A stretch of 64,000 nucleotides of DNA from Lentinula raphanica (lineage: Eukaryota; Basidiomycota; Agaricomycetes; Agaricales; Omphalotaceae). Made by a program: the position numbers and the translations under genes. Below the pieces are notes generated by a model. The model searched no databases. It was not told the DNA's origin and saw only the letters and a list, made by a program, of their open reading frames with translations. Shown here one piece after another: positions 3,714 through 47,840 of this stretch (its first letter is position 1; each line of letters starts with the position of its first letter). The stretch lies in assembly GCA_027919835.1 (NCBI GenBank), contig JANVFP010000053.1:1-64000 (forward strand), given 5' to 3'.

Positions 3714-4977
3714 GCACAGGATACAGTAAAGTTTTTGTGAAAAACATTGATAAATTAGTGGGTACCTATTACAAATAGTTGTGATAACCCGGAGGGAGTC
3801 CCAGAAATGACCCCGAGGGGTGGTCATGCCTATCACTACCTAGCACATATGACTTATATTTATAATCATCTAGATATTAAATAAGCAGTACATTTTCAAA
3901 AAAAAACCCCGAAAATTCATAAAAATTGATAAAAAACCTAAAATGGCCTGATTAGATCAGATCGGGATATGTAAGCAAATGACCTCATATAATAAAAAAT
4001 AATGTAGGGCCAATGTAGGTACTAAAAATAGCTCAAAAAATTACTAAAAATGCAAAAAATATTTAGGGATAGTATGGAGCCTATTGCAGGCCCAGGCACA
4101 TCAAAATTACCAAAAAAGGAATAAATTGATCATGATCTCATCTCGTAGCAAAAAATCTGAAAAAAATCCTAAAAATAGTCAAAAAATTCAGGGGTGCCTT
4201 GTTGGCCCTGAAAATGCAAAATAAAAAAATATGCGACAAGTGTAAAAAATTTTATCACTCCAAATCATTCCAAATCCACTATACAGTCAGTATATATGAT
4301 GTATATGCTATATTTAGCATCCTAGTACCTTTATTGGGCTAAAAATAGAACTTGATCTCATCTGATAGCAAAAAATCTGAAAAAATCATAAAAAATACTC
4401 AAAAATTCAGGGGTGCCTCATTGGCTCTGAAAATGCAAAATAAAAAAATTTACATGACACAATTGAAAAACAACATCACTCCAAATCATACCACATCCAC
4501 TACACAGTCAGTATATATTATGTATATGCCATTTATAGCACCTCTAGTACCCTCAATCACTTATATCACTCAAGAATCATACCAAACTGAATAATTTGGG
4601 GAGTACATATATTGTACATAATATTTTTAGCACATCTAGTATCCTTGATAACTTAAAACAATTTATATTACTCAATATGTTCAGTACACTTAGCACTTAT
4701 CACACCTAACACATTAAAACTTATAATAGTACTTATATATATTATACTTAACATAGTTGACAATGAAAATACTTAAAACAGTGTTATCAGTCACTATATT
4801 TAACACACTTAACAGTCAAAAAGTCGAAACAATGTTATTTTATATACATAACACATTCATTGTTATATTATAACACATTCATAACAACCAGTTTTAGGCG
4901 CTTATGGGCGCTTATTTGGTGTTTTTAAGTCAGAATTCATTGATAGCACACTCAATAATTTTTGTGTGGGCTCTAGT

Positions 4978-5175
4978 CATCAGGAAAAATGTTCCTGGCT
5001 CTGAAGTCTTCTGAGACACCTCCCCAAAGCCTGGAGACACCGGAGATTTTGAAAGCACTTTAAGTTTCTCCAGGCATCCTCAAAGTGCTTTCAGATTCTC
5101 TGGAGCACTTCAAAGATCTCAGGGCTTTTGGGGAGTGTCTCTAGAGTCTTTGGAGCTGAGGTATTTTTCCTGATG
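4978..5175. mobile_element. MITE, CATCAGGAAAAA family, copy 2 (198 bp)
   Basis: Ends are CATCAGGAAAAATG and TTTTTCCTGATG, with inverted GACACCTCCCCAAAG / CTTTTGGGGAGTGTC arms. It is inserted in the left arm of FB1. FB2 has the uninterrupted site at about 16128 (GCTCTATATTG). It is nearly the reverse complement of the copy at 60460-60657. Confidence 0.8.
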
Positions 5176-5869
5176 ATATTGTGTAAGAATGTTGTTTATA
5201 CCATACTACACTTGATACAATTCAAAGAACTCAAGATTACAGCTTTTGGGACTGGCTATATTGTGATCTTTTGTGATATAACAGTGTGTTATGTAAATGT
5301 CAATGCATACACCCATGTTATGAAGTCAAACTGCTACTGGGTCATGAGAGGAGTCATCCTACAACCTATTCTATGCTAACTCTATGTGATACAGCCAAGA
5401 GATCTGTAATGGGGGTCATTGAATATGACATCTATTGTTACATGTAGGTGTAGACATCTATAGTGTACATGAAACATGTATATGTATATAACAGAGTCCA
5501 ATAGTCATAGTAAGTATCTGAGCCATGTCCAGACACTTCTAGTAGACTGTAGGTATTAGGGGTGATTCCTTCATGAACCACCATCAGTATACTTGCATTA
5601 CATGGACATATGCATTGATATTTACATAAACTTACACTGTTATATTACAAAAGATCACAATATAACCAGCCCCACAGGTTGAATTTTCGAGTTCTCTGAA
5701 TTGGATTTAGAGGAATATGATATAGACAACATCCTGACACAGTATAGAGCCCAGTTGAAAATTATTGAGTGTGCTATCAATGAATTTTGACTCAAAAACA
5801 CCAAATAAGCGCCCATAAGTGCCCAAAACTCATTGTTATAAGTGTGTTATGGTATAACAATGAGTGTGT

Positions 5870-5877
5870 TATGTATA
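5870..5877. repeat. 8-bp direct repeat flanking the Crypton-like element (left)
   Basis: TATGTATA at 5870-5877 is repeated at 12533-12540. The opposite arm of the same foldback (near 4850, read on the minus strand) carries one uninterrupted copy, GTGTTATGTATATAAAATAAC. That defines the empty site and the element ends. Confidence 0.8.
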
Positions 5878-6817
5878 GACAGTTTTCGAGTCGCCAGCGG
5901 ACTTCCCACGGACCCGCTGGGTACCGTCACGTGAGGTAACCTCCCGCCATTCGGAACCTCCGGCGGATGACTCATCCCTCCCTGGTTACCTCGTCCTCTT
6001 TCCGCTCGTCGCGCCTTCCGTTTCCGACTTCGATCGCTCGCTCGGGCTCATTTCGAAGACGCCAATCGAGGGCCTTATATCTTTTCGCCTCGTTCGACTC
6101 ATTTCAACACCTCGATTGTGACGATCGTTGCATTTGGACTACTGATATTGACCCATTATCTTTTCTTCGCTGGTTTACACCCTTCTATGCCTCATATCTA
6201 CACATATTATCATCAATAAAGGCTTTATGGACTATCACTCATATGCATCACACTCGAACAAGCAAGGAAAGTAAGGAATGATTTGAGCATCACCAGAGTA
6301 GACATCACACCGCCTTGTTCAAGGGTTTCGGAGGTAAGAAACTCCTCGATTGACTTAAAACACCTCCTCATTTTCTCAATTGGGGCTTCTCAGATAATAT
6401 TGTGTCAATCGGTCTTGGTTTAACCTGTAATATCTCAATTGGGGGTGTTTGAGGCGGACTCATCTCAACTGGTGTTTTGCAGACCTCAAAGCTCTCGATT
6501 GGTATGATCAAGGCTGAGAGATCTCAGACGGGGTGTTTTCTGCAATGGAACTTGTTGATCAGGGTGGTTTCGGTGAAACAGACCAATCGTGTTGTTTTGG
6601 ACCGAAGTCATCAAACAAAGTCAGAAGATCCCAGACGGTATGTTTTTCGACGCCGGAACTTAGTGATCGAGCTGGTTTTGGCAGTTGGACAGACCAAACA
6701 TGCTGTGTTTTGGGCTGAAGTCATACTAAACGACGTTTTCTATTTCAGCAGCCTTGAATCCCAATTAGCAGAGTTTTATTCTCAGAATTGGCTCATTCGT
6801 TCTGAAATCTGTGCGCT
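5878..6817 (+). promoter_or_regulatory. Left non-coding end of the element with an imperfect 108-bp repeat
   Basis: This 940 bp stretch precedes the cargo gene. CTCAATTGGGG motifs occur at about 6375 and 6434, with weaker versions near 6460 and 6490. From about 6513 to 6730 a unit of about 108 bp is repeated imperfectly; CAGACGG recurs at 6524 and 6632, each time followed by a GAACTTGTTGATCAGG-like stretch. A 104-codon frame at 5967-6281 has no coding look. The stretch probably holds the promoter and recombinase binding sites. Confidence 0.5.
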
Positions 6818-8531
6818 ATGTCACACAACCAGGAGCATCCTCAAAGAGACTACGTTGATGTAGATTTCCCAAAGTATGTGTTTTGTCTCAACTTATCTTG
6901 CATGCTATAGCCTCACGGAGTCCATATCAGAACTTGGAAGAAAGCAGATTATGTTGCACTAGTTCAACGCCAACTCTCGAGCTGGCCCAATACCGAAGCA
7001 CCATTCAGCCCATCAAGAACCAGCATCGCCGATATCAAACGGGTCCTGAAAGACTCCTCGACGCAATTCAAAACCTCAAAGCCCTTACCAACAGCTCAAG
7101 CTCTGATTCCCGGATACGGCGTTGCTTCGAACTCATCGAAACATGCCAAGACAGTGCTAACGCATCCTGCAGTCAAGGTGAGAAGCACGACTGAATTCAT
7201 TAACGTAGTTGTTTCATTGACCTTGACCTTGTGCGCAATGTCAGAACAATCAGATTGGAGCCCACTCAGATATTGAGTCAATGAGCGATCCAACATTAGT
7301 AGTAAGTTTTGCTTATCATCATAGTACACGACTCGAATCTCAGCATTGCCAAAGTCAATTACTCTCCTTATTACGGACAAACGTTCCGGCGAAATATCAT
7401 GCATTTCTCAAGAAGTTGTTGTAGCTTACGTTGACAATCTTGGATGCAAGCCAAATGAAGTCCGTGTGAGGTCGCGAGATGTTCTCGATGCTCTACAAAA
7501 TACTCCTGCACGTCTCGAAGGTAGGATTATCAGACAATTTCCCCCATACAATGCAATTGCGCTTACATGTTTGAAGACTCGGGTCAGCTTCTAAAGGCAG
7601 ATCCACTACACCCGGGTTTCAACCAGATACTCATCAGATCGGGAGAGTTTTCAAGTGCGATTCCCAGCCCCGACATCCTTGTCATTCCAGAGACAAGGGT
7701 TATCAACTTGATTGTCGAGAAGGTATGTTTTCAAAGAGTATTCGAGCTGTTATGATGGATGTGTTTTCAGGATCGTCCAAATGCTGTTCTTAAAATTGAT
7801 AGCCAGCACCCGGTCAAGCCTGCTTCTGTCATTGGTATGCTTGTTTGTGCCGCACAAGTTATTGTTCTGCTAACTGATTCACAAATTCAGAACCATCTTC
7901 AAGCTCATCCAATCCTCTCCATGATCATTCGCCATCGGATCTTGACTGGAGTAAACAAGGAGATGAGATGACACCTTTAGAGTTTGCTCGAAAGATCAGG
8001 CCTCAACGGAAGGAGCAAAACACAAAGCACAAAGGTGAACGGAAGCAGCGAATGATTACTTGGTTGCGTGGCGAAGCGGAGAAGCTACCAGGGTTTGAGG
8101 AATTTCAAAGTTCCCGTTGTCATCGGTTGTCGAATTCTGCAATCGCTGCACATTGGACTTTTGCAGCTGAATTCTCGGAAAGCAAGTTTCGCAAGAAATG
8201 CGAGGTAACTGTAAGTAGTTTGAAACCTGCTATATGACATTCCGTTAAGATCAATTTTGGTTAGGAATTGACGATCACCAAGAAGGTCATTGCAAAAGTC
8301 CTTGGTTTGGGGGAAACCTCCCTCGCGACTGCTGAAGAAGGCCACGATCTCCTCAAGCTTTATGGACCAGGTGGAAGCCATGTGGCTCCAGAAGTGATAC
8401 GTGCTGTCGAGGGTGAGGATACTGACGTATCTGGAGCAACCGAACTGCTCAACTTTCTTCGGGAATGGGAACTCAACCATCCTGTACCAGAGTCAAAAGC
8501 AGCAAAGCGTCGACAGCGTCGACAACAATGA
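6818..8531 (+). CDS. Unrecognised cargo protein of the Crypton-like element (8 exons)
   Basis: The start at 6818 (MSHNQEHPQRDYVD) is followed by a 51-bp intron (6860-6910). Exons run 6818-6859, 6911-7177, 7245-7301, about 7344-7520, 7577-7722, 7771-7834, 7891-8204 and 8265-8531. All junctions keep frame except that between exons 3 and 4, whose phase I could not resolve. The product is about 445 aa. Its N-terminal part (GVHIRTWKKADYVALVQRQL) is helical. The middle contains PKSITLLITDKRSGEISC and DILVIPETRVINLIVEK. A basic helical region follows (ERKQRMITWLRGEAEKLPGF, then AIAAHWTFAAEFSESKFRKK). The C-terminus is very basic (AAKRRQRRQQ), suggesting nucleic-acid binding. I recognise no family. 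It converges on the recombinase gene within the same insertion, so it was probably mobilised with it. Confidence 0.65.
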
Positions 8532-8647
8532 TAAAGCTGCTATGACTCTGATATACTTTCAACTTAGATTTTTATGATGATACAATTTAGATCTCACAAC
8601 GTTATTTGTTACAAAGTCATTGCGAAATATAGATAATGTATTCGACA

Positions 8648-11600
8648 TTATGGATAATTATTTGCTGCTGAAAGAACTGCATTCATGCCCGATCCATCTT
8701 TCTTTTGAAGGTAAGTAATGAAGCTGCGTGCAGTTTTCAACTCCGGTACCCCCTGTGTAGGTATCGGAAAGCGCTCGTCAAGAAATCGCCAGACTAAATC
8801 CATCGTCCAGTTTGGGCGCGAATGTAACTGGACAATGAGCTCATATAGCTTTTTGTACCGGCTCTTCTCAGTCTTCAGCCCGCTTTGATTCCTGCACCAT
8901 CGTGCCTCCCAGCCCTCATTCAACTCCCGGACTGATAGATACCCGTCTCGTCCGATTGTCCATTCCTCCCAGTATTCACGGAGCGTTGGTGGTGTTTGGA
9001 ATTTGTAAATGGGAAGCGGCTCGGCAGGTAGATTTGGTTTGGGTTTCACCCACTCCCACTTGTGTTTGTCCACTTTTGTCTCGCCATATCGTTGTCGAAG
9101 CAGGCTCATAGCAGCTTCTCTTGTAAGGTTTAGTTGCTGAGACTGAGTATCTGGAGCCGGCGAAGAAATACCAGGATGAAAAGCATGTAGCGAAGGTGCA
9201 GGAATGACCGCAAGAGGCTCGGGAACGCTGGGCGTCGACGATGTATCGATAGATAGTGTTGTTGATAGAAACGGTGTTGATGGCGTAGTAGTTAAAGGGA
9301 CAATACCGAAAGGATTAGGGTTGGAGTCAAGTGTCGATGACTGGTCGATGATATTTGTAGTTGCAGGTATTGTAGTTATTATTGGCGTAGGGCTTGGCCC
9401 TGATGGTAGAGAATGTTCGATATCTAGAGATGAATTACTAACTAGCTGAAGCTGCATAGAGAATATCAAACATACCTGCTTTACGTTTACGCTTCCGACT
9501 CTTTGATTTCACGCTAAGATTGTTCGACAATTCCTCCGAAGTTTGCTGAGCGAAGAGGTCTTGGCGTAAAAGTTGATGTTGGCGATGAAGTTCAATCTGC
9601 TGGTTCATCAATATACCATGTAAACTTCCGACGAGATAATCCGGAAGGTTCTGGAATTGTTCGCGTGCACATGCTTCGGCGCGCTCAACAACAGAGACTG
9701 CAGTACTAGCCCAGTTACGAAAGATGTCGGAGTCGAATGGCGCAATAGAGAAGACAAAGGAGTTTGGGAATTCGGTATACAGGATTGCTGCATCTTGTAG
9801 TAGAACTCGCCGAAGAAAGAGTAACAGATTGAGGAATTGGATGAGGGCGTAATCTTCAGCGCGTTTTCCATACCGGTCTCGTCTTGCGACCAGTGCAGCT
9901 TGTTCAGCCTCCACCCAAGGAAAAACTTCATGAAGAAGATTTGAAGGTGGCTCTAGACAGTCTCGGCTACAGGTGTAACTTTCAGGTCGCTTCGCATCAA
10001 ACATAGCGATCCCAAGCATGGCGTCGATAGGATGCTGATGGTCATATGCATTTTCAAATGCTCCACGACCTTCCTTCCATTTCCCGACCGCCTTCCTGCC
10101 CTCGAGCGAAGCTGAATGGTCTCCGGCAACTTTAGGTGCATAGTGCCGACCGCCGTGTGTGACCGATGAGACATGAACGTTGTTCAATGTATAAAGGAGA
10201 TTCGTTCGATTACGCTGGTCTGTGTGTGAAAAGAGTGAATACGGTTGCTTGCTGCAGAGAAGAACCTACTCACTGCCGTACGACATTTGGGAAGTTTCAC
10301 CTTTACTGCCATGATAGAGAATGAGTTTCCACCAATCGCGCCGCCCAATTTCTGGATAGTCTGGGTCCGCAAAGTCTGGAGCAAAGTCCGGGCAAGGTTT
10401 TCCAAGGACATGATATTGGCTGAAGAGATAAAAAGCCAAACCGCCAATCCCACACATTCGAGCGTCAAGATGGCGCAACGCTGCATGTTGCTCAGTACGG
10501 CCTTCCTTGTTGTGTTTCCCATTGTCCCGTGTTGCGGTTATGATCTATAAATGCAATTTGTGAGCATCTACATAGCATGACATCGAATGATTACTTACCT
10601 TGACTGTGTACCCGGGCTTGATTTGGGGTAGCGGTAGATCTTCAACACCAAGATCAGATAGCTGGACGGCACGAAGGGAATCACCACGAAAAGCGAACAT
10701 CGAGCACATGAGGATCATGGAACGATCACGAAGTGCTTTAGCGAGTGATGTGCGAGAGGGATGAATGCTATCAAAAACGGACATGGCAATTTTCTTGAGC
10801 TCTTCAGGAGTATATGTAGCTGATTCACGAAAATCAATTGGCAGCACTAAACAAGTGAGAAAGCACCATACCAGATAGAGGTCCAGCTGTTTTCATCTTT
10901 TGAGCATTTAAGGCTCGTAGAGGCTCATTTCGTCTTGCGGCTGACTCGAAAGTTTTGATCCGGATATCACTTCGAAGTGGTTTGTGAGATTTAATATTCG
11001 CCACATAGTGAGGCAAATGTTGCCGCTCGGAACGATGTTTTTCGAGGGCACTAATAGTCTGGCTGATAGATTCAGAGCCGACCGAACCAGTGCCTCCCTT
11101 AGCCTGAGATGTTCTGATCAGTACAGCAACGACTGACATACAAAACACATACACACCTTTGGCCGACTAACTTCATATTTCAGAAAAATAGCCACCTTTC
11201 CTGCGGTGATTGGTTCTGCGGTCAAAGTTCGATGTCGAGAGGGATTCGCCTCCAAACGTAACTGTTGCTGATGTTCGATCCAATCAAAGTAGGCATTTAC
11301 ATGCCTACTGTAATTGTCCTTCTTGGAGTTTCGGTTACGAGCCTCGTCCTGCATTTGAAGCCGATAAGCATGTGTTTCGCGATCTATTTCTTCATCTTCT
11401 TCATCAAGTCCCAGTTCGAGCTCGGAACAGTCGGCAAGAAAGGAAGAGTCTTGAATAGTTGTGAGGTCTGCCAGCTCGTCCTCGTGAAGATCGGATATGA
11501 GCGTGAACTCTTCACCAGTAGTTTCGGTCGAGCTTGTGACAGAAGATGACAACGTTGGTGGTGCTGTGTCAGGGGAAAGATGAGCATCGATTCGAGGTTT

Positions 11601-11759
11601 CTTGCTTGGTGGTCCATTTATTTGCTGGGAACTCGAGCACTGTTCAGATAGTGATGTCGAAGATTTCATACTCCCTGGACCGGAAAATGATACAAGAGGA
11701 TCCAGCTGGAATGTATGATAGTGAGAAAACTGCGAGACGTTGTCAGAATCTGCAGACAT
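8648..11759 (-). CDS. Crypton-type tyrosine recombinase with GCR1_C domain (952 aa)
   Basis: Six exons: 11155-11759, 10872-11113, 10599-10819, 10274-10544, 9476-10219 and 8648-9423. All five introns (41-54 bp) keep frame, giving 952 residues. The start at 11759 (MSADSDNVSQF) is the first Met ahead of an acidic, serine-rich N-terminus. Catalytic residues of the family are visible: the box I arginine in FRGDSLRAVQLSDL (about residue 327), HxxR in THGGRHYA (about 467-470) and the probable nucleophile in NAYDHQHP (about Y504). The stretch MCGIGGLAFYLFSQYHVLG resembles the Ndc10-II/DUF3504 fold. A basic KSRKRKRKAG lies near 690. The C-terminal region TLREYWEEWTIGRDG to RYKKLYELIVQL (about 841-895) fits a GCR1_C DNA-binding domain. 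The gene appears intact and should mediate excision and integration. Assignment is by motif recall. Confidence 0.85.
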
Positions 11760-12532
11760 GTTCAGAAAGACTCTCAAACTCACTTTTGCCTGATTATAAG
11801 ACCTCCCTGAACAATGACAGTGCTTGGACCTCAGGAAACTGTGGCCATGCCAAAAATTGGGCTCGCAAACAATGGACGGGTTTCCGGGTGGCCACACTTG
11901 TACGAATGAGGATAACGATGATAGATTGAATCGAGATGACGATGATAACAGGGCAGATAGATATGTACTTGTTGTTTGTTTGAAAGACCAACAAAGGTCA
12001 AAATCAAGGTGATCGAAGAAAGAGAAAATGGTGGAGATGAAATAGGTAGTCCCGATCGTTGCAGTCATACCGTTATTGGCCGAACCCTGTGATAGTCAAT
12101 GAGTAGTGTCTTCCAGAGAGTCAAATGAGCACTCGCCTGAGCTGTCCAGAGAACAATCCATGCCAATCTCATATCAAGCATTGAAAGGACTGAGATGTTC
12201 GAAAATTTTTCTGAATGGGCTCAACAATGCTGATCATTTCAGCAAGTGAACGAGGATTAACTTCCAGAGCTTTTCAGTGGAAAAACAGACGTTGGTCAAT
12301 AATACACAATTTGCCAGTGAGCTGTAGCCGTTGGATAGAATGTAGATGTCGACGACAACAAACGAAGAAACCTCAGGTCACACAATCCCACGATTGGGGT
12401 GTTCCGGGCCTTGCCATATTAGGAGTGTCCCGATTGGGGTGAATTTGGGTATTTTCACTGGTTACATGCCCAGCACCGAATTCTATTGTTCGTTGGGGTG
12501 CCCAAGGGCACTGGGCACTACTATATACACTC
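11760..12532. promoter_or_regulatory. Right non-coding end of the Crypton-like element
   Basis: This 773 bp stretch lies between the recombinase start codon and the right boundary. CGATTGGGGTG occurs at 12391-12401 and 12431-12441, and TCGTTGGGGTG near 12491. These resemble the CAATTGGGG motifs at the left end of the element and have the same orientation. The recombinase promoter must be here. I see no TATA box that I trust. Confidence 0.45.
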
Positions 12533-12540
12533 TATGTATA
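12533..12540. repeat. 8-bp direct repeat flanking the Crypton-like element (right)
   Basis: TATGTATA, the partner of 5870-5877. FB1 arm sequence (TAAAGTAACATTG) resumes directly after it. Confidence 0.8.
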
Positions 12541-13669
12541 TAAAGTAACATTGTTTTGACTTTTTAACTGTGAAGTGTGTTAAGTATAGTGACTGATAAT
12601 ACTGTTTTGAGTATTTTCATTGTCAACTGTGTTAAATATAATACATATAAATACTATTATGAGTTTTCATGTGTGAGGTTTGATGAGTGTTAAGTGTACT
12701 GAACATATTAAGTAATATAAATTCATCTGAGTTATTAAGGATACTAGGTGTGCTAAAAATTTTACTGAATGTTGTCAGTCTGATATGATTCTTAAGTGAT
12801 ATAGAGTGATTGAAGGTACTAGAGGTGCTAAAGATAGCATATACATGATATATACTGACTGTGTAGTGGAATTGATATAATTTGGAGTGATGTTGTTTTT
12901 CAATTGTGTTGTGTAAATTTTTTATTTTGCATTTTCAGGGCCAATGAGGCACTCCTGATTTTTTTGAGTATTTTTTATGATTTTTCCAGATTTTTTGCTA
13001 TTAGATGAGATCAAGTTCTATTTTTAACCCAATAAAGGTACTAGGATGCTAAATATAGCATATACATCATATATACTGACTGTATAGTGGATTTGGAATG
13101 ATTTGGAGTGATAAAAATTGTTACACTTGTTGCATATTTTTTTTTATTTTGCATTTTCAGGGCCAACAAGGCACCCCTGAATTTTTTGACTATTTTTAGG
13201 ATTTTTTTCAGATTTTTTGCTACTAGATGAGATCATAATCACTATTTTCCTTTTTTGGTAATTTTGATGTGCCTGAGCCTGCAATAGGCTCCATACCATT
13301 CCTAAATATTTTTTTGCATTTTTAGTGATTTTTTGGGCTATTTTTAGTACCTACATTGGCTCTACATCATTTTTTTATCATATGAGGTCATTTGCTTACA
13401 TATCCCAATCTGACCTAATCAGGCCATTTTAGGTTTTTTATAAATTTTTATGAATTTTCGGGTTTTTTTTGAAAATGTACTGCTTATTTAATATCTGGAT
13501 GATTATTAATTACCCAAAACAGTAAATATAAGTCATATGTAACAGGTAGTGACAGGCATGACCACCCCCGGGGCTATTTCCAGGACCCCTTCCAGGTTAT
13601 CACAACTATTTGCAATAGGTACCCAATAACTTATCGGTACTTTTTACAAAAGTTTTACAGTATCAGCTG

Positions 13670-14792: not shown

Positions 14793-16261
14793 TGGATAAG
14801 GGAATGCTAGTACACACTGCAGAGTGCAAATTGTAGCTCATTTCTCATTGAGTTGAGGGGTAGAAGTCTAAGGGAGTATGTTGAGGTAACGCCTCAGCTG
14901 AAGCTGTAAGAACTTTACAAAGTAGACTGAGAAGTCTCCATATATGCTTTGCAAAGTAACAGGAGTGGCTTTCCAAGCTTAAAAAACTCTTCCGGGCAGG
15001 CCAGTAGGGCTCCAGGGGGTACCCGGCTATTTATTATATTTATTAATATTTAATAGTTTTTTTATTATTTAATAAATATATTATAATAAATCTACTTTGC
15101 AAAGCTGTGCTGCACTTCGCAAAGTGACTATGTTTACGACAATTATGAAATCAGGTAAATTAGGGTTACATCATTATGTCATCACCTTCCTTTTTTGGTT
15201 CTTGCCTTTTTGAATAAAAAATGTATAATATGACATCATTGATCTTCAAATGCTAAAAATCACAGGGAACCAAAAATAGCTGCAGTGATGTCCTGGTTAC
15301 CTCAGGCACATCAAAATTGCCTAAAAAGGAAATTTGTCTAAAAATAGAACTTGATCTCATCAGGTGGCAAAAAATTAGAAAAAATCATTAAAAATACTCA
15401 AAAAATTAGGGTTGCTTGGTTGGCCCTGAAAATGCAAAATAGAAAAAATACGCGACAAGTGTCAAAAATTTTATTACTTCAAATGATACTACAACCATCA
15501 GGCATTATGTATAGATGATTTATATGCTATTTTTAGCACACCTAGTGCCTTCAAACACTCAGATAGCCTATATCATTCAATATATTTACTATACTCAATG
15601 TTTATTAAACTTAATACAGTCAACAAGAAAGAATCTTGTAACAGTAACATGTGTGTTATGTTTAACACATTCAACAATGAAGAAGCCTTGGAACAGTGTT
15701 AATGTATGTTATACTCAACACTTAACAATGAAAAACCTTGGAACAGTGTTCATGTGTGTTATACTTAACACACTTGACTCAATATACTGAATAATGAAAA
15801 GAAAAACCTGGAATGGTGCTCATGTGTATTATACTCAACACACTTAACAATGAAAAAAACTCAGATCAGTGTTACTGCATGTCATACTCAACAGACTTCA
15901 TCAATGAATATAACACACTTAACAATCAAAACCTCGAAGTAGTGTTCTCACTCATTATACTTATACACTCAACACACTTCATCAGTAAGTATAACACACC
16001 TTTAATGAGACATTATTATACTATAACACACTTATAACAACGAGTTTTGGGCGCTCATGGGCACTTATTTGATGTTTTTGAGTCGAAATTCATTAATACC
16101 ACACTCAATAATTTTTATGGTAGCTCTATATTGTGTCAAGATGTTGTCTATATCATATTCCTCTAGATGCAATTCGGAGAACTTGAAAATTCAACCTGGG
16201 GGGCTAGCTATACTATGATCTTTTGTGATATAACAGTGTTTTATATAAATGTCAATGCATA

Positions 16262-17061
16262 CACCGTGGGCAAATTGAAGGGTACCATTGCAAAAGGTGC
16301 CTTAACGGCACCTTTCCTGTACCATACTGGGCATGCTGCATCATAGCTTTTGAGCCGCTTGTAAAGAACTTGCATGTATGTTGCTATCTACTCATCCTTA
16401 CAATCAAAACAATGGCAGCCTGAAATATTAACTAAAAATTGTCATTGTTTTTGTGTCATCATGGCATGAAGCCAAGATGAGTGCTGCATTGCACTTCCAA
16501 TGAGCAAACAAGTCTTTGAAAACCCATTTTACAAAGCATGCAATCTCTCAGCATGTAGCACTACAGTGGGCTGATAATGCTTACTTTGCCTTACATCTAT
16601 TGTTCAATATGGATAGTATAGCTGTGTAGAGGGACCCTGCTGCATACTGTTCCTCCGGGGATTTTGGTTTTCACCATGGACACCCTAACACTACTACTTA
16701 GTTTTTCATTGCCATTGAAATTAGAAGTGGAAACTGACATCTGCTCCCATATAGCTCAGTAGTCAATGTTCTTTAATATGATTTCTTATACAAGAAATGG
16801 AGTGCCACAAGTTTTCTTTGTATTCATATCATAAGAATAGCTGCCTGCATAAGCTGGTTACTACATGTTTTTCAAGCACAAATCATCCATATCTGTTTTC
16901 ATATATCTGGAGTTACTTGAGGATGGTAGGTAGCCTAGAGGTAGCGCCTCAAAATTAGGGCGCTCGATCAACTCTCAGAGGCAATAGGGTGCCCACCATG
17001 GTACAGGACAGGTGCCATGAAGGCACCACACGCGATGGTGCCCTTCAATTTGCCCGTGGTG
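16262..17061. mobile_element. 800-bp non-autonomous TIR element inside FB2
   Basis: The left end is CACCGTGGGCAAATTGAAGG and the right end, read inverted, is CACCACGGGCAAATTGAAGG. FB1 retains the empty site (GCATACACCCATG near 5308). Here ATA at 16259-16261 is repeated at 17062-17064, giving a 3-bp duplication; a 7-bp ATACACC duplication is the alternative reading. The interior shows no coding frame. CAC ends with a 3-bp duplication would fit the CMC (CACTA-like) group, which is only an inference. Confidence 0.75.
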
Positions 17062-17213
17062 ATACACCCATGTTATGAAGTTAAACTGCTACTGGGTCAT
17101 GAAAAGAGTCATCCTACAACCTATTATATGCTAACTCTATGTGATACATCTAAGAGATCTGTAATGAGGGTCATTGAATATGACATCTATTGTTACATGT
17201 AAGTGTAGACATC

Positions 17214-17437
17214 CATCAGGAAAAATTGATCTAGGCCCAGGTTGCCTGGAGACACCCCCAAAATCCCAGGCAGTTTAAAGTCTTTGAAATGATTTTAAGT
17301 CAACCTTATGTCTTCAGGCTTACCTGAGTTGCTTTGAAAATCTTTGGAAATCTTTGAGAATCTCTGAGAAGCCTGGGAAGCCTGAGCTATTGGGGGGTGT
17401 CTCTAGGCTCTCTGGGCTGAAAGTATTTTTCCTGATG
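17214..17437. mobile_element. MITE, CATCAGGAAAAA family, copy 3
   Basis: Ends are CATCAGGAAAAATTG and TTTTTCCTGATG, nearly the reverse complement of the copy at 983-1215. The empty site is in FB1 at about 5443 (GTAGACATCTATAGTG). Confidence 0.8.
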
Positions 17438-18180
17438 CTCTATGGTGTACATGAAACATGTATATGTATATCACACAGTCCAACCTCTATGATAGCTATC
17501 TGAATCATGTACAGACACTGCCAGTAGACTGTAGGAGTGCTTTTCTCATGACCCAGCATCAGATTACATGGACATATGCAGTGACATTTACATAAAACAC
17601 TGTTATATCACAAAAGATTGCAATATAGCTACCTCCAGAAGTTGAATTTTTGAGTTCTCTGAATTGTAACTAGAGGAATATGATATAGACAACATCCTGA
17701 TACAGTATAGAGCCACCATAAAAATTATTGAGTGTGGTATTAATGAATTTCGACTCAAAAACACCAAATAAGCACCCATGAGCACCCAAAACTCGTTGTT
17801 ATAAGTGTGTTATAGTATAATAATGTCTCATTAAAGGTGTGTTATACTTACTGATGAAGTGTGTTGAGTGTAAAAGTATAATGAGTGAGAACACTACTCC
17901 GAGGTTTTGATTGTTAAGTGTGTTATATTCATTGATGAAGTCTGTTGAGTATGACATGCAGTAACACTGATCTGAGTTTTTTTTCATTGTTAAGTGTGTT
18001 AAGTATAATACACATGAGCACCATTCCAGGTTTTTCTTTTCATTATTCAGTATATTGAGTCAAGTGTGTTAAGTATAACACACATGAACACTGTTTCATG
18101 GTTTTTCATTGTTAAGTGTTGAGTATAACATACATGAACACTGTTCCAAGGCTTCTTCATTGTTAAATGTGTTAAGCATA

Positions 18181-18432
18181 CATCAGGAAAAATGTTTTAA
18201 GCTTAGGGCATTCAAAGATACCCCTTATTTCTTAGGCCCTTTGAGCAGCTTCAAAGTGCCTAACCAGCTTCAAAGTGCCTAAAGCTCCTGAAAGATCCTG
18301 AAAGATCCCCAAAGACACCTAGGCAACCTCAAAGAACCTCAAAAACCTAAGCCTCCATAGATTACTTTAAAAGTTCCTAAAATTTGAGGGGTATCTTTAA
18401 ATGCTCTAGGGATAAGATACTTTTTCCTGATA
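18181..18432. mobile_element. MITE, CATCAGGAAAAA family, diverged copy 4
   Basis: It starts CATCAGGAAAAATG and ends CTTTTTCCTGATA. The arms are different from the other copies (GATACCCCTTATT / TTTGAGGGGTATC), so it is a separate subtype. It is inserted in the right arm of FB2. TA flanks both sides. Confidence 0.7.
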
Positions 18433-18512
18433 TATTACTGTTACAAGGTTTTTTTTTGTTGACTGTATTAAGTTTGATAAACATTGAGTATAGTAAATAT
18501 ATTCAATGATTT

Positions 18513-26103: not shown

Positions 26104-28128
26104 TGTTGCGCGGTTTTTCCGCGCAGGCGTGCAATGATCAAAAAGATCTACTTAGACCGTTGCATAGTATCAATAAGGACTGTAGTGAGCCCGAACTAGC
26201 AGTCAAACTTGTATCAGTATAAGCTAGGATACAGATCCTTTGGCAGGATCAGCCATGAATATCCACTTAGAGCTATTGCTCGCACCCTTGGTCGGGGATC
26301 CTTCAAGAAGGCTGACTACTGGTACGAGCACACCAAGGGAATATCGACTTAGTATCAAGATCTGCCGGATCGGCACAACTGAGTTTGGTACTTGGCTGTG
26401 ATGACGGAAATTTCACTTGATCTAGCAGATCAGACACGATTAGAGCCTATCCGGACGAGTTACCACACGGAAACCCTACGCAAAGTAGCGGAAACCGTCG
26501 GAAACATGATGATCTAGCCTTTCCGTGGCAGTACGGGTGAAACCCGCAGCGGAAACACGCATATGTTCAAGTTCTAAACTGGGATATAGCGTACGCTATG
26601 TACAGCTTTGACCAGCACTCACGGAAACGCGCGGAAACCTACGGAAAACACTTCTGAAGTATTTATCTTCGTTGTCCGCTCCAGAACACCAGGCTATATG
26701 CATACCGTTCGAAAGCTACGGACCAGACCTACCTGATCCGCGAGATCAACCACTGTTACGAGTCTAGCTCATTAACTTGGGGAGACCACTACTATTCCGC
26801 GGAAGCAAATTCGTCGGAAACACTTGAGCAACACAGGCAGGAGCCACTCTGACGAGTTAGGCACCCTAGCATGTGGATGCCGCACAGACCATGGTCGGAA
26901 CTTGCTTGGTCTTCTAGATCTGGCGAAAGTACGACGAAATACGGACAAGTTTCATCTTTTTCTCTGTTTTCCTTACAATTTCCTTGCGTGTTGGTATCGT
27001 TTCAGTCATATTTTACTATTTAAGTGTATATTATCGGACTCCGTCCGTAGAAATAGCTAGATCTACTAGATCAAGGACAAATACGGGTATTGGACTTTTC
27101 GTAGTGTACTTAAAGACCTGTATCCGCACAAATGAAAGAAGTTTCGCGCCCAGATCTCTCTGAACTGGTAATCCTTTTCATCCATACGTGGGAGTAAAGG
27201 CTTCTAAGCCGTACCGGACCTTGCAGATTAAGTGTGTTACTTCATCGCGATAAGCCCGACTTTTGAGTGGTTTGACTTGGTGTCTGTCACTTGCTAGTTG
27301 AAGGTAGACTCCGTTCCGGAGATACAGAGGACTTGGTCTCAGGTTGTGCCGAGTGAACGTGCAGAGTTTTGGTGGCTCTGTTCAAGTTGACACGTAGTGA
27401 TTGGTGATCTGCGTGATCTTCGAGGTTTTACTGAGAATAGTGATCAGTACTGCTTCACCCGGGAGCGGAATCGATTGGTCTACCATAACGTCTGGTACCC
27501 CGTTGCTTTCCGAGCCTAAAAACCCTTATCCGAGTGGAAGCCGCTCAAAACAAACCCTTTAGTCCAGATCTTACGACTGGTATATCCGTGTCACTTCGTT
27601 CTGCTGACCAGTATTGCTGATCTAAAAGATCTTACAAGACTGCGTTCGACTTGAGATATAAGATAGTGCGGAATCTCTGACAACGCCCCACACCTCGCTA
27701 TAAATACGATTTGATTGACGAATCCGTGAAGTCGTACTCTGTGTTAGTGCTAAGTGACCTGTCATAAGGCATTATACTAAGAACCGACTTTATACCTCGT
27801 TATCTGGAGCCCACCGCGAGGGGTGGAATCTATATTTTGGTCGAACTCGAGAGATCTTCTTGATTTCTCAAAACTACTGCCTTTGATCGAATTTATTTGA
27901 TCATTAAAAATAGCTCCAAGAGCTACTCGGACTTCGAAGAACGCGGGCTCAGCAGATTTCTTTGATCCAGCGATACAAGCTTCAGATCAGCGAAAGCGCG
28001 CAACAAAGAAACCCTCTGTACCTGTTTACGATCCGAGAAACCTCGGAAGAGCGAGTACTAGCAATCCAGATAACGGGAGAGCTCCTAGACCATCTTCGGA
28101 ACAACCAGTAACGAAGAGATCTAACGTA
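26104..28128 (+). repeat. 5' LTR and leader of the gypsy element
   Basis: There is no partner LTR, so the inner border cannot be fixed. A TATA box (TATAAATA) lies at 27699-27706, and a primer-binding-like TGGAGCCCACCGCGAGG starts at 27805. These suggest an LTR of about 1.7 kb followed by a leader of about 320 bp to the gag start. The stretch holds no other ORF of note. Confidence 0.5.
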
Positions 28129-29817
28129 GTGCCAGGAAACGGTAGACAAAAGGCAGCTACTGTTGGACCAGATCCGCAATCTAGTTCAGATCCTACATTA
28201 CAACCCGAACCATTTGATTTGATACGACTGTTTTTACCCAACAATATGTCCGAAGTACATAACGGAAATGATCAGGGAGCCGCGGGAGCGAATGCTAACG
28301 CACCAGCAAACCCGGCTGCCCAACAAAAACGACCGGAGGATCAACTCGACATCATAAGGATGCTTGGTCCTCCTGAACTGACTCCTGCGGAACAAGCAGA
28401 GTATAACAATACCAAGTTTCCGCTTACGCACAAAACTGCTATGATCCTGGACTTGGCCAATCCGAGCATGATCCCCGAGTGGGTGAGGTTCTGTTTGAAC
28501 ACGTTCCAGGCTACGGAAGTTACCTCAGAGAAGGTGAAGATGCAAAAGATCTTTTCTTGGATGACCCTTCAGACCAAGCAGGCTCTCGAGCATCTTCCCG
28601 GCGCGCAGGAGGGAAGGGAAGACGCGGACTGTTTCCTGCGTTCCCTGTGTGAAAGATTTCCGGCATCTCTAGGGAGACCAATGGGTTCGAAGAATACGCT
28701 CTTGCAGATCGTACAGAACTATGCTCCTTTGGGTGTCCGGGACGGAGATAGGTTGCTCGGATATTGTCTGTTGATGGAGGTAGAAGCCAATAAGTTGTTG
28801 AAACCGCCTCCGGCGATAGGAAACACGGAATTGGTGTCTCTTTTCCTGTCAGCATTCGATGACGAGTTACGGAAAGCTGTGAACCGTAAGGTTCAACAGC
28901 AGGTACCTGCTTTCCGCGTAGAGAAACGTCGGGTCGATGATCCATATCTGTTCATAGAGTACAAGGAAGCAGCAGAGGCCGTAGCAAGGCACCCACCCTT
29001 GGAATCGTTGTACCGTACGGTTACAAGTCGGGATGGTGTGGTCTTCAATGCGGAAACCCATTCAAGAGGAGGCGTGTACGTTCCGATTGGTGGTCCTCCG
29101 GTGATCAAAGAAGAAGTACCGGATCTCTCGCATTTCTTCCGGTCTCCAGCTAAGCCCGTTGAAGTGAAACGAGAAGCTTCCGAGGAAACGGAAAGAGCAC
29201 TAGCTGCAAATCGGGACCAGTACAGTGTGTTGGTCAAAGATTTGGGAGCACTTAAGGCTACCTACAAAGAGGAACTTGAGACGTTGGCTCAAATGCTGGC
29301 TAACATCAAGACCGGAAATGTTCAACCTGCGCAACGGGCGCAGCCCCATACTGTCGCTTCTGGTAGTGGTAATCCCGGAAACAGTGGGCCTCCCCGCGGA
29401 ATCATTAACACGAATCCGAATAATGCACCAGGTCAAAGGTCTGAGATGTTGTGTTTCCTGTGTCGGGAACCGAATCATATGATGCAAAGCTGTCCAATGT
29501 TCTTGGAACTCTTAGGGAAAGGTTGGATTATGCGTGATCCGCAAGATCCAAAGCGTCTTAAGTTGAAGGATGGGTCTCCGCTACCGAATAACTTCGGAAG
29601 TGAGAGTAGATACCAAAAGATCATGAAATATGGTCAGGCCAAAGGATGGCCCGAAGTTTCGACGATGATGAACGAGATGATCCCGGACAATGAGGATTAC
29701 TCGGAACAGTTGGCCGGATCCCCAGCTTGGATGGTCATTGCCAATCTGGCGGAGATGGTGCAAGGGAGATCTAGCAATGGTGTGGCTACGGTGTACACGA
29801 ACGAGTCGGGAAACTGA
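28129..29817 (+). CDS. Gag polyprotein (562 aa)
   Basis: Starts at 28129 (MPGNGRQKAATVG). The central part contains a retrotransposon capsid-like region (NPSMIPEWVRFCLNTFQATE, then KQALEHLPGAQEGRE and DRLLGYCLLMEVEANKLL). A CCHC zinc knuckle, CFLCREPNHMMQSC, lies at about residues 440-454 with C-x2-C-x4-H-x4-C spacing. The frame ends ESGN-stop. The last sense codons are GGA AAC, forming the heptamer GGGAAAC directly before the stop, so a share of ribosomes could enter the protease frame. The structural role (particle assembly, RNA packaging) is known for the family. The ORF appears intact. Confidence 0.85.
   Translation: MPGNGRQKAATVGPDPQSSSDPTLQPEPFDLIRLFLPNNMSEVHNGNDQGAAGANANAPANPAAQQKRPEDQLDIIRMLGPPELTPAEQAEYNNTKFPLTHKTAMILDLANPSMIPEWVRFCLNTFQATEVTSEKVKMQKIFSWMTLQTKQALEHLPGAQEGREDADCFLRSLCERFPASLGRPMGSKNTLLQIVQNYAPLGVRDGDRLLGYCLLMEVEANKLLKPPPAIGNTELVSLFLSAFDDELRKAVNRKVQQQVPAFRVEKRRVDDPYLFIEYKEAAEAVARHPPLESLYRTVTSRDGVVFNAETHSRGGVYVPIGGPPVIKEEVPDLSHFFRSPAKPVEVKREASEETERALAANRDQYSVLVKDLGALKATYKEELETLAQMLANIKTGNVQPAQRAQPHTVASGSGNPGNSGPPRGIINTNPNNAPGQRSEMLCFLCREPNHMMQSCPMFLELLGKGWIMRDPQDPKRLKLKDGSPLPNNFGSESRYQKIMKYGQAKGWPEVSTMMNEMIPDNEDYSEQLAGSPAWMVIANLAEMVQGRSSNGVATVYTNESGN
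29808..29814 (+). promoter_or_regulatory. -1 frameshift heptamer GGGAAAC at the gag stop
   Basis: In the gag frame it reads TCG GGA AAC TGA, i.e. G GGA AAC (X XXY YYZ) with the stop next. A -1 slip continues CTG AGG AAT CCA ATG into the protease frame without a stop. A perfect 7-bp stem (TGAGTTG at 29831-29837 with CAACTCA at 29875-29881) lies downstream, although its spacing is long (16 nt). Confidence 0.65.
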
Positions 29818-29825
29818 GGAATCCA

Positions 29826-31304
29826 ATGATTGAGTTGACCTCTGGGCCAAGGACACGGTCTCAGCAACAGGCAACAACTCATGAGGGTGCCCCAAAGCCT
29901 AACTCACCAAAAGCAATACCTGCCGTCAAGAATAAACGCTTTGACGGGGTGCATATACCCATAGATCGAAATAACCCTAGTAAAAACAAAACATCCGAAA
30001 AACCGAAGTCCAATCCGGACAATTCTACGCCTAATCATGACCGATCTGCTGGATCAGACCCCGATTCTTCTCAATCACTGAGGGAAGCTGCTTTGGAAAG
30101 GATACAGTCAGTGACCATTGACGATTTAACGGATGAGAGTGCTTTAGGCTCGGGACGCGAGCCTGATCAGACAGATCAACGGAAATCGAAGCAAGTACGA
30201 TTCCGCGATCCGTCACCTCCTCGTACGGAAAATCCGAGAAGACCATTTGATGATGTTCAGCCCAGAGAAGTTACACCTCACCCTCGAAATCAACCAAAGC
30301 CGGAAAAGGTACCTGAATCTAAGGGATCTTCGAAGGCACCAAAATACAGGCTGCAGAATGAACTGTTCACGCCTGGTCTAGAGGAAGAGCTTGCTGACCG
30401 GATAGTGCGAAAGACGATTGAATTGACTTCTTCCGAAGCTTTACAGCTTTCGGGGAAGATCAGGCAGATCGTAGCACGAAAGATACGGAATAAGCGAGTA
30501 CTTCCGCAAGATCGAAAGAAAATGCTGCTGAACTTGGCTGATCAACAAGATCTAGCTACGGAAACACTTTCAAATGATGATTCCGAAGACGAACAAGTCA
30601 TTTCCGTGGATGATCTAGCATTACCCGAAGCTTGGGCTTTTGAAAGATTATCTGAGGATCGGGATGGGATGAAAGCAGGAGCGTTTGTTCAAGTAGATCC
30701 AGTAGAATCATTCTTAAGTGATGTCGACGAGAATGATGAACGACGAGATATGACCATAGTTGCTACCATAGGCAATGGTCTCCGTGCAGTGTGGCCTGTT
30801 GTGAATGATCGGGAAGATCTCGAAGTAGAGAACCTCCTGGACTCAGGATCACAGATAGTCGCAATCGACATGAGCGTGGCGTTAGGCTTAGGTCTAGGTT
30901 GGGATCCCGGAATCACCATACAGATGCAAAATGTACATGGCGGGATCGCGCGGACCAAAGGTTTAGCCCGAAATGTGCCCTTTCGATTTGGACCAGTCAC
31001 AGTGTATTTGCAGTTACATGTTCAAGAAAAGGCTCCCTTCGAAATACTGTTGGGACGTCCGTTTGATGTGTTAACTGAGAGTGTCATTCAGACATTTGGA
31101 TCGGGTGATCAGGAACTTACGATTACGGATCCGAATACTGGAAAACGGTATACCATGGGTACATATCCGAAAGGACATGGACCGAGAGCACCAAGAAAGG
31201 TGGTGGAACGAAAAGTATCACAGCCAACTCAACAGTTGCAACCCGAATCAAGACGGGAAGACACTCACGAGGAGGCAGAGAAAGTTCCGCAACCAAATTT
31301 TTGA
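29826..31304 (+). CDS. Aspartic protease ORF (492 aa)
   Basis: A long charged linker rich in Ser, Pro, Lys and Asp precedes a retropepsin-type domain. Its catalytic motif is NLLDSGSQIVAIDMS (Asp at about residue 339). The flap region QMQNVHGGIARTKGL and the FEILLGRPFDVL motif (about residue 405) follow. The frame is -1 relative to gag and the first ATG is 9 nt after the gag stop. The protein is therefore probably made as a gag fusion by frameshifting, with reinitiation at 29826 the alternative. It ends QPNF-stop, where CCA AAT TTT TGA contains a second heptamer. The protease matures the polyprotein. Confidence 0.8.
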   Translation: MIELTSGPRTRSQQQATTHEGAPKPNSPKAIPAVKNKRFDGVHIPIDRNNPSKNKTSEKPKSNPDNSTPNHDRSAGSDPDSSQSLREAALERIQSVTIDDLTDESALGSGREPDQTDQRKSKQVRFRDPSPPRTENPRRPFDDVQPREVTPHPRNQPKPEKVPESKGSSKAPKYRLQNELFTPGLEEELADRIVRKTIELTSSEALQLSGKIRQIVARKIRNKRVLPQDRKKMLLNLADQQDLATETLSNDDSEDEQVISVDDLALPEAWAFERLSEDRDGMKAGAFVQVDPVESFLSDVDENDERRDMTIVATIGNGLRAVWPVVNDREDLEVENLLDSGSQIVAIDMSVALGLGLGWDPGITIQMQNVHGGIARTKGLARNVPFRFGPVTVYLQLHVQEKAPFEILLGRPFDVLTESVIQTFGSGDQELTITDPNTGKRYTMGTYPKGHGPRAPRKVVERKVSQPTQQLQPESRREDTHEEAEKVPQPNF

Positions 31305-31340
31305 ATAACCTCTGGGATCTGAGTAGCGACCAGGGAGAGG
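31295..31340 (+). promoter_or_regulatory. -1 frameshift signal (AAATTTT plus stem-loop) at the protease stop
   Basis: The protease frame reads CCA AAT TTT TGA; A AAT TTT at 31295-31301 is a canonical X XXY YYZ heptamer. Slipping -1 gives TTG AAT AAC CTC, exactly the start of the reverse transcriptase frame, which has no ATG there. Seven nt downstream, CCTCT (31309-31313) can pair with AGAGG (31336-31340). Confidence 0.65.
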
Positions 31341-33258
31341 TAGAAATCGCTCTTAGTGGGTACTGGGATGCTCAAGCGGAGGAAGTGGTTATCGAGTCGA
31401 ATCAGGTGAAACGAGGTACCTTCTCAGATGAAGAATTAGCGGACGTGTATGTACAGTGCTGTCTGCCAACGATCGAGAAGTCGCACCCCGGAATTGCCGA
31501 AACCATATCACTATACCTGAACAAAGGTGTAGATCATCAACAAAATCGTGTGATCAACCCATGGAAGGAAGGATTTAGAGCTGATCCGACCGTTGAGGAC
31601 CTGAAGGAGACCTTTTACCAGTCCATGACAAAGGACGTTAGGTGGAAAGACTTACACGGGTTAACTCGTCCATATGATAACACGGAAGATCTACCAGATC
31701 AAGGAGATCAAACAAAAGATGCGGAATTGTCTTCAATGACCCAAGATTTGGAGGCTGCGATGCATCGTGTTAGGCTCTGGGAACTCAAGAACGAGACGAT
31801 TGACCAGCATACATGCGCATATAATGATGTGTTTTTGCCAGATCAGCCAGTTTCGGTCTTCGGTTCTCGAAAATATAAGCCTGTAGCGGTGAAAGTTCGC
31901 CCTGTCAAGGCTGATTTACCGGAAGAATTCCGTGTGCGGAGACACATTTACGGGGATCCTTTGGCTGATCTACCAGATCTACCAACTCATCCTCCGGAAT
32001 TCACGCCGGGTATTCGGTATACGCAAGAACGGAAAGAGATCATCGAGAAAAACCATGCGGAAGGTTTCCTTACGGACGAGGAAATGAAGCTAGTTCATCA
32101 TATGATGAAGTTGCAGGAAATGGGTTTTGCTTGGGAAGCTTCCGAGGGCGGAACATTCAGAGAGGACTTCTTTCCTCCCGTGAAAATTCCGGTCATACCT
32201 CATGAGCCCTGGGTCGAACGAAATATTCCAATTCCTCCTGGAATCTTCGAAAAGGTTTGTAAGATCATCAAGGATAAGATTGATGCTGGAGTTTATGAAC
32301 CATCTTGCTCGAGTTATCGTTCAAAATGGTTTTGTGTGGTCAAGAAGGACGGAACGAGTCTTCGTTTAGTACATAGTTTGGAACCATTGAACAAGGTGAC
32401 CATTCAACACTCCGGGATTCCTCCTGCTACCGCGGATATTGCTCGTCATTTTGCGGGTCGTGCCTGTGGTGGTTTGTTGGATATCTATGTGGGTTATGAT
32501 GAACGACCACTCGATGTTAGTTCGCGAGATCTAACGACATTCCAAACTCCGTACGGACCACACCGTCTCGTAAAGTTGCCTATGGGTTGGACGAACTCTG
32601 TTCCGATATTCCATGACGATGTAACTTACATGATGCGAGATGAAATTCCGGAATATACGATTCCTTACGTCGATGATGTTCCTATCAGAGGCCCCGGGAC
32701 TCGTTATGAATTACCGGGTGGCGGATACGAAACTATCCCTGAAAACCCTTTGATCAGACGATTTGTCTGGGAGCATCTACAAAATGTGAACCGAATCATT
32801 CAGCGGATGCGGTATTGCGGCGGAACCTTCTCGGGACCTAAAGCATTCCTGTGTTGCGCTGAAACAGTAGTGGTTGGACACCGTTGCACGTACGAAGGAC
32901 AGAAACCGGAAGATAGAATCGCAACTACGGTTCTAACTTGGCCTCCGTGCTCTTCTAAGACACAGGTCCGAGCCTTTCTGGGAACTGTTGGTCAGCTCCG
33001 GATGTTCATTCACAATTACGCTAAGAAAGCCTCACCTTTGACCAAATTAACGGCGAATATTCCGTTTGAGTGGAAGGATGAGCATGTCATAGCCATGGAC
33101 CTGTTGAAAGACGGAGTCCGTAATGCACCAGCCTTAAGAGTCATAGTATATGACTGGGAAACACACTTAGCAGTGGATAGTTCTTACATGGGTACGGGAT
33201 TTTACATCTATCAGATTGATCCTGTAGATCAGACCACTGGCAGGGAACTGATATATAT
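31301..33258 (+). pseudogene. Reverse transcriptase with truncated RNase H
   Basis: The frame is open from 31301 (TTG, the frameshift entry) to a stop at 33316. About 280 residues of spacer precede the RT domain. The domain reads WVERNIPIPPGIFEKV, KWFCVVKKDGTSLRLVHSL, then GGLLDIYVGYDERPLDVSSR (first catalytic Asp), TPYGPHRLVKLPMGWTNSV and IPYVDDVPIRG (YVDD at about residues 456-459). The RNase H region begins with ETHLAVDSSYMGTGFYIYQI. It loses family similarity after GRELIYM, near 33258. The rest of RNase H and the integrase are absent, so the element cannot complete retrotransposition alone. The codons after 33258 belong to flanking sequence. Confidence 0.8.
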
Positions 33259-44133: not shown

Positions 44134-44496
44134 CAGCTGAGGCTGTAAGATTAATGCATAACGACTGGACAACTGTCCCCACTCGTTATGCATAATGAAT
44201 GGACAGCTATCCAGGAAATAAATGAATTATCCATATCTCCTGAAATAGCCATTTTTGGAAAAAACTGACCCCCCCTATAGGGGGTTTTCTGTTTTGGGCT
44301 ATCAATATAACCTCAGATTTTAAACCCTAACCCAACCCCTAACCCCCTAAATAGCTAACCCTAACGGTAGGGGCCTGATTCATCATTCAGTGCTAAATCC
44401 CAGTTGTACAGTGGTGGAATAACTGTCCATTCATTACGCATAATGAGTGGGGACAGTTGTCCAGTCGTTATGCATTAAACCTACAGCTACAGGTGC
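44134..44496. mobile_element. 363-bp MITE sharing termini with the foldback family
   Basis: The left end is CAGCTGAGGCTGTAAGATTA and the right end, inverted, is GCACCTGTAGCTGTAGGTTT. Long palindromic arms then share TTAATGCATAACGACTGG. GACCCC is duplicated at 44128-44133 and 44497-44502. Copy B is uninterrupted here (TTGACCCCTTGCTAGG at about 49961). The same insertion is present in copy C (63693-64000), inverted. Confidence 0.8.
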
Positions 44497-47292: not shown

Positions 47293-47840
47293 GAGCCAGA
47301 GTACTTCAAGTGATAGCATCCGAGCAGAGTAAACAGTGGTGGAACTCTAACCGGGTTGTACTGCAAAAACTCTTCTGCAAAGGCTTGCTGACTGAAGAAT
47401 ACGGTCTCCATGACGCTCTTCATCCAACCTTCGATTACCTTGCTCCTATGTATCCTCTTCCCAAAGAGGATGAAGATCCTCAAGGTGGAATGGGCGGGTT
47501 CCATTCCTGGAATACCGCTCTCTGCCATTATATTCTGGATCTACTCAAATCTTGGTGTCTCGTGAAGCGGGAGATCTACCCTACGATGAAGGAAAAGGCC
47601 TCTCTACTACTCAAAATGGTACATTTCGAGCACAAAAGTGATTCTCTGTTCAACGCTTTCCTTGAACTCGTGTATGAAATTTACACAGAGCCTTCTCTAC
47701 GGTGAAGCAATTTGACCACTCGTCTAGAACCGTTGTTCTTTGTCGGATGTCGCTCCACTGATTTCTCACTCCGGGAGTGTTTCTTGGACCTCCTAGATGT
47801 CAGCGTACCTCAGTCACTCTTCAGCTGTTTGATGTAGATT
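47293..47840 (+). pseudogene. TRA1: TRA1/TRRAP fragment, copy B upstream piece
   Basis: Encodes SKQWWNSNRVVLQKLFCKG, YLAPMYPLPKEDEDPQGGMG, YPTMKEKASLLLKMVHFEH, FNAFLELVYEIYTEPSLR, then a stop (47703-47705). It continues as PLFFVGCRSTDFSLREC to SLFSCLM, where a foldback terminus begins at 47841. This piece contains sequence between WWNS and FNAF that is deleted in copies A (44600) and B (50080), so it represents a less deleted ancestor. Even so, it lacks several hundred residues found in normal TRA1 between GFHSW and LCHYILDLL. Confidence 0.8.

Follow-up and report, generated by a model that had tools for sequence, protein, structure and literature searches.

A two-gene CryptonF element of Lentinula raphanica: a conserved partner gene and a 7-bp recombination core

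The first 64,000 nucleotides of contig JANVFP010000053.1 (C53) in the 49-Mb, 75-contig assembly of Lentinula raphanica (Agaricomycetes; related to the shiitake mushroom), hereafter the window, contain an insertion that encodes a tyrosine recombinase and a second multi-exon gene (gene 2). This raises the question of whether gene 2 is a passenger or a working part of a mobile element, and of how such an element is joined to its target. We find that the insertion is a CryptonF element, that gene 2 is no recent cargo but belongs to two deep element lineages, in which it is conserved and under selection, and that the short cores bordering six insertions fit tyrosine recombination through a single crossover (Table 1).

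The boundaries of the insertion could be read from its own integration site: when the window flanks were joined through one copy of the repeat and compared with the opposite arm of the surrounding foldback repeat in reverse complement, the two sequences were 88% identical over 1,257 bases, with a gapless junction. Insertions with the same start and stop bases are present in unrelated flanks at C6:791673-798327 (99.2% identity) and C38:5537-12119, and thus the element ends are fixed independently of the window. The initial annotation, which had proposed an insertion with defined boundaries, direct repeats and an empty site, is borne out in these respects, as it is for the lack of terminal inverted repeats (TIRs): when the ends of the window element were compared, no 30-mer matched at more than 16/30 positions, and 88 of 200 shuffles did at least as well. 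In case of the repeat, the direct repeats that had been claimed are present, but their size is not that of an 8-bp duplication. The eighth base on the left side (A, position 5877) is constant in all three left-ended copies of the window family, and on the right side it is A, G, C and T at C53, C6, C38 and C29, respectively; the repeat is therefore a 7-bp core, TATGTAT, with an eighth base that matches by chance. The C27 family exhibits another palindrome near its right end, unlike the one in the window element. The host site of the window element is a high-copy foldback repeat with arms of about 1.1 kb (window 3720-5877 and 12533-13664); a search that scored only 40 of 898 candidates found 43 matches to it, spread over 21 contigs. 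More inverted repeats (409 nt, 94%; 203 nt, 97%) lie at window 15332-18510, a region that has repeat families in common with the foldback arms.

Table 1. Coordinates of the two-gene element and its associated features within the window.
Feature	Position	Strand	Description
Unique part of the two-gene CryptonF element	5877..12532		6,656 bp, or 6,663 bp including a single core; ends shared with C6 and C38; empty site
Left recombination core TATGTAT	5870..5876		direct repeat; xATGTAT in 6/6 two-ended insertions
Right recombination core TATGTAT	12533..12539		direct repeat; starts TAT in 6/6 two-ended insertions
Empty-site core ATACATA	4844..4850		within the other arm of the foldback
Left subterminal inverted repeat CCAGCGG...CCGCTGG	5894..5920		candidate recombinase site, read from the sequence
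Right subterminal palindrome GTGCCCAAGGGCAC	12498..12511		candidate recombinase site, read from the sequence
Gene 2, no assigned family	6818..8531	+	440 aa; 8 exons: 6818-6873, 6931-7177, 7245-7301, 7355-7520, 7577-7722, 7771-7834, 7891-8210, 8265-8531
Tyrosine recombinase	8648..11759	-	948 aa; 6 exons; NDC10_II, GCR1_C; putative tetrad R323, H464, R467, Y501

The recombinase matches NDC10_II above the Pfam cut-off and GCR1_C (PF12550) with 31.3 bits against a cut-off of 23; DUF3435, the domain of Starship captains, was not among the matches listed for its exons at E-values up to 1, and a PDB sequence search returned only three weak matches, two of them to CBF3 subunit A (E 0.34 and 0.65). The catalytic tetrad was assigned by motif and is putative: among the aligned recombinases with a letter at the respective position, the residues are present in 14/15 (R), 12/12 (H), 10/12 (R) and 14/14 (Y), the exceptions being the copies at C50 and C49. 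Between the window and C38, the ratio of non-synonymous to synonymous divergence (dN/dS) is 0.116 (NG86, 948 codons), with zero stops in the C38 copy. Both domains, the lack of TIRs and the short direct repeats, which here take the form of the 7-bp core with four to seven of seven positions alike per insertion, identify the window element as a CryptonF, so that the Crypton membership in a basidiomycete and the full-length recombinase with a second multi-exon gene, both read from the sequence at the outset, have held. Five distant NDC10_II matches elsewhere in the genome (C1:789913-790332 and C1:799081-799500, which lie 9.2 kb apart; C20:953843-954262 and C20:64399-64665; C40:7993-8259) are possibly other Crypton families.

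The gene pair recurs across the genome. A whole-genome DNA search with the element gave nine matches, among which the C6 and C38 insertions (the latter in three pieces) are the two further full-length ones with the same ends. Gene 2, which faces the recombinase tail-to-tail in the window, is likewise convergent with it at C6, C38, in three units at C27:475825-495561, at C10:936406-943359 and at C49 (~94828-102426), although the recombinases of C27, C10 and C49 are only 36-40% identical to that of the window. Parts of both genes also persist in a relic at C27:208-216 kb, which is interrupted by a foldback insertion and whose interior, bracketed by two inverted copies of 548 bp, has been turned around; allowing for this inversion, the gene order is that of the other copies. 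The foldback copy that splits this relic is a second copy of the repeat hosting the window element, and the inverted copies of ~548 bp (C27:212092-212637 and C27:214038-214585; 99.5%) that flank the inverted part represent a short element with 121-bp inverted ends. In strain F5878, both proteins (P0015 and P0002) have neighbouring locus numbers, each on a contig of 15,613 bp. Because the pair recurs in several old element families of this genome, gene 2 seems to be functional within the element and not cargo acquired by chance.

No intact copy with the recombinase alone, or with other ends, was seen among these matches: the copies that lack gene 2 are incomplete, with C29 retaining only the right end, C3 a 0.5-kb fragment and C50 the right end plus a recombinase match that ends at residue 523, with no gene 2 found in the 9.9 kb examined there. 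Degeneration is evident in the C49 and C50 copies. When the recombinase profile was used as a query, 18 proteins were retrieved, six from L. raphanica, ten from ten other named mushroom-forming fungi and two others; nine of the 18 were dropped as partial or duplicate. In the resulting tree of 15 rows, six of them from this genome, the window and C38 recombinases cluster with those of L. lateritia (C8R41DRAFT_923707), Rhodocollybia and C50, and those of C10, C27 and C49 cluster elsewhere; Tricholomella and Pleurotus also have such recombinases. The two groups bearing gene 2 are not sisters. Gene 2 either goes back to a common ancestor and has been lost or gone undetected in other species, or has moved between element families. 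Of the "recently active cargo-carrying Crypton" in the initial annotation, recent activity stands, given the 99.2% copy in other flanks, but cargo in the sense of an acquired passenger does not, as gene 2 is present in two deep lineages and a diverged relic, facing the recombinase tail-to-tail wherever the pair is well enough preserved to judge.

Independent models at NCBI support the gene 2 structure: P0012, from another strain, shares its start and first intron; P0009 agrees with exons 6-8; and P0003 equals our C27 model save for one additional intron; the NCBI models attributed to the window copy itself (P0009 and P0022) are fragments. Comparison of the window and C38 copies gave a dN of 0.147 and a dS of 1.32 (dN/dS 0.11; NG86, 351 codons), and gene 2 is under strong purifying selection overall. 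Sequence searches with gene 2 assigned no family: nothing exceeded the Pfam cut-off (HeH/LEM, E 0.015; DUF6930, E 0.016; Spore_SspJ, E 0.096), no Pfam peptidase family matched, PDB sequence searches gave no matches and a viral fold library returned nothing at E <= 0.001. A gene 2 profile search, with scoring confined to the 7,996 candidates that had the most words in common with the query, retrieved 12 proteins from six locus prefixes, all of them from L. raphanica. The protein is predicted to begin with helices at the N-terminus, to continue with a middle part resembling a beta-grasp fold and to end in a helical C-terminal domain. With a second model, the top Foldseek matches were staphylococcal superantigen-like proteins (E 0.05), which we take to reflect the common beta-grasp shape only; the C-terminus was compared with the DNA-binding domains of ParB, Noc and KorB as a candidate ParB-like fold. 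From these models, the gene 2 product is probably a DNA-binding accessory factor.

In order to place the crossover, the cores at both sides of the six two-ended insertions were compared. The left and right cores are TATGTAT/TATGTAT at C53, GATGTAT/TATGTAC at C6, TATGTAT/TATATAT at C38, TATGTAT/TATGTAT at C27, AATGTAT/TATGTAT at C10 and AATGTAT/TATATAC at C49: the left core reads ATGTAT at positions 2-7 and the right core TAT at positions 1-3 in all six. Left and right cores differ at seven positions, spread over four of the six insertions, and in every case the target-type base lies where one crossover between core positions 1 and 4 would put it. Were the sides random, this would occur by chance in 1 of 128 cases, a post hoc reckoning in which the element-type base was derived from the same data. 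Among the right-end-only copies, the core of C29 (TATATAC) fits this pattern and that of C50 (GATGTAC) does not. The mismatches are consistent with tyrosine recombination by one crossover between positions 1 and 4, and are not predicted by target-site duplication. A DDE transposon with 8-bp target duplications, carrying the recombinase as a passenger, would account for the perfect 8-bp repeat, which the window copy alone exhibits; the lack of TIRs, the absence of a transposase domain from the 10 open reading frame pieces scanned and the one-sided differences, which refute it unless they are mutations, leave this explanation with hardly any probability, and we rejected it.

A further structure bearing on the mode of movement is found at C27:475825-495561, where three units are arranged head-to-tail, repeating after 6,576 and 6,577 bases; reading the two inner junctions and the two outer borders showed one core at each, and the exons of unit 2 match with the same scores as those of the other units. 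Such a triple with single cores would be expected if circles integrated repeatedly into a resident core. It could also be an assembly error or a product of unequal crossing-over, and would then be silent on circles: tandem copies are a usual assembly hazard, and identity was 99.9% wherever the units were compared (2,000 bases of units 1 and 2; 5,262 bases of unit 3). However, both inner junctions fall exactly at the core, two differences, one of them a 1-bp indel, separate units 1 and 2 within these 2,000 bases, and an initial head-to-tail pair with one common core would need explaining regardless; we consider this alternative rather unlikely.

The copies are also mosaic. Identity between the window and C38 is 95.9% at 5878-6600, 67% at 6601-8650, 86.6% at 8651-10050 and 97.5% at 10051-12532, with steep steps at both edges of the gene 2 segment (about 6600-8650), and synonymous divergence rises from 0.08 (recombinase residues 1-520) through 0.46 (521-694) and 0.57 (695-948) to 1.32 in gene 2. 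The same contrast was observed for strain F5878, with 98% identity over recombinase residues 1-431 and 69% over gene 2 residues 110-440. Since the non-coding parts show the same identity steps, we infer that the gene 2 segment was exchanged between element lineages by recombination, and not that selection acted on the protein; rapid positive selection was rejected as the source of gene 2 divergence, given a dN/dS of 0.11 and equally diverged non-coding sequence. In case of C6, identity to the window is 96.4% at 5878-6600 and 99.1-99.9% elsewhere: the left end has either also been exchanged or evolves differently.

Taken together, we regard it as probable that the window element is an autonomous two-gene CryptonF that moves as a single-core circle made by its recombinase, with gene 2 as a DNA-binding accessory factor or regulator and with a gene 2 segment that is exchanged. 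The recombinase would join both ends of the element into a circle with one TATGTAT core (junction ...ACACTC-TATGTATA-GACAG...), and this core would recombine with target sites of the type xATRTAY; the left junction would then keep base 1 of the target and bases 4-7 of the element, with the reverse at the right junction. The gene 2 protein, as a probable DNA-binding accessory, may assist or direct recombination or regulate the element, and its segment would be swapped between element lineages by recombination. A bolder version remains tentative: gene 2 would be a dedicated DNA-binding partner that diverges fast and either directs excision and integration or confers copy-specific control, its cassette being exchanged wholesale, as in phage modules, with the ends and the catalytic domain staying alike, and the triple would represent circles caught integrating into a resident core. 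For eukaryotic tyrosine-recombinase DNA transposons, we came across no report that describes such a dedicated accessory factor.

Other roles of gene 2 were weighed against this proposal. Phage immunity regions offer an analogy for segment exchange that provides new specificities, and gene 2 might in the same manner act against the host or rival copies (anti-silencing, copy or immunity control) and not in recombination, with the swaps reflecting a need for new specificities. The low identity of the gene 2 segment between steep edges and better conserved flanks, in C38 as in F5878, would suit such a role, but selection on gene 2 is strongly purifying overall, not positive, and the swap includes non-coding sequence, so that ordinary recombination between lineages explains it; we therefore think this role improbable, and the exchange of the segment may even be neutral. 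That gene 2 is a host gene recently captured as cargo could be argued from the restriction of its profile matches to L. raphanica and from the lack of a known domain above cut-off. This explanation is largely refuted and very improbable in our view, since homologues occupy the same convergent place in lineages with strongly diverged recombinases and since the gene 2 matches in the genome lie in elements or in the C27 relic, bar one; the presence of gene 2 in diverged lineages led us to reject the passenger reading. The single match outside is a lone fragment at C25:291304-291513, which resembles gene 2 with 30% identity over 74 residues.

Elsewhere in the window, portions of a Tra1 gene occur in two to three copies at 42438-51152 and 62371-64000, in direct and inverted orientation and mostly with 96-100% identity. 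The open reading frames at 27901-33316 match an aspartyl protease and, just below the cut-off, a reverse-transcriptase RNase H, and probably belong to a long terminal repeat retrotransposon.

CryptonF elements with GCR1_C and short direct repeats (4-6 bp) have been described from fungi and oomycetes, and a Crypton circle intermediate has been proposed from analogy with prokaryotic recombinases (Kojima and Jurka 2011, PMC3212892). The window element resembles them in its tyrosine recombinase with GCR1_C, lack of TIRs, short terminal direct repeats and proposed circle; relative to the portions of that article available here, it differs in having a second gene without known domain that is conserved across lineages and a 7-bp core with one-sided mismatches, and in that its C27 relatives form a tandem triple. 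The rule given in the initial annotation, that a Crypton normally has no gene but the recombinase, has exceptions, as oomycete CryptonF-2_PS and some CryptonS encode a C48 (Ulp1) peptidase according to the same portions (PMC3212892). The window element is like these in encoding a further protein, whereas gene 2 matches no Pfam peptidase family and has a different predicted layout. Likeness to the Starships of Pezizomycotina, as far as an excerpt of PMC12134995 describes them, lies in being a fungal tyrosine-recombinase DNA transposon with further genes; the window element instead belongs to Basidiomycota, has an NDC10_II/GCR1_C recombinase and, at 6.66 kb with two genes, lacks giant multi-gene cargo. 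Among titles and abstract openings, we found no report on the pair of Crypton recombinase and gene 2. For the biology of these transposons, the natural junctions of six insertions place the crossover inside the 7-bp core, the triple is the structure that would be expected of circle integration, and the conserved partner gene allows the need of a eukaryotic tyrosine-recombinase transposon for a helper or directionality factor to be tested directly.
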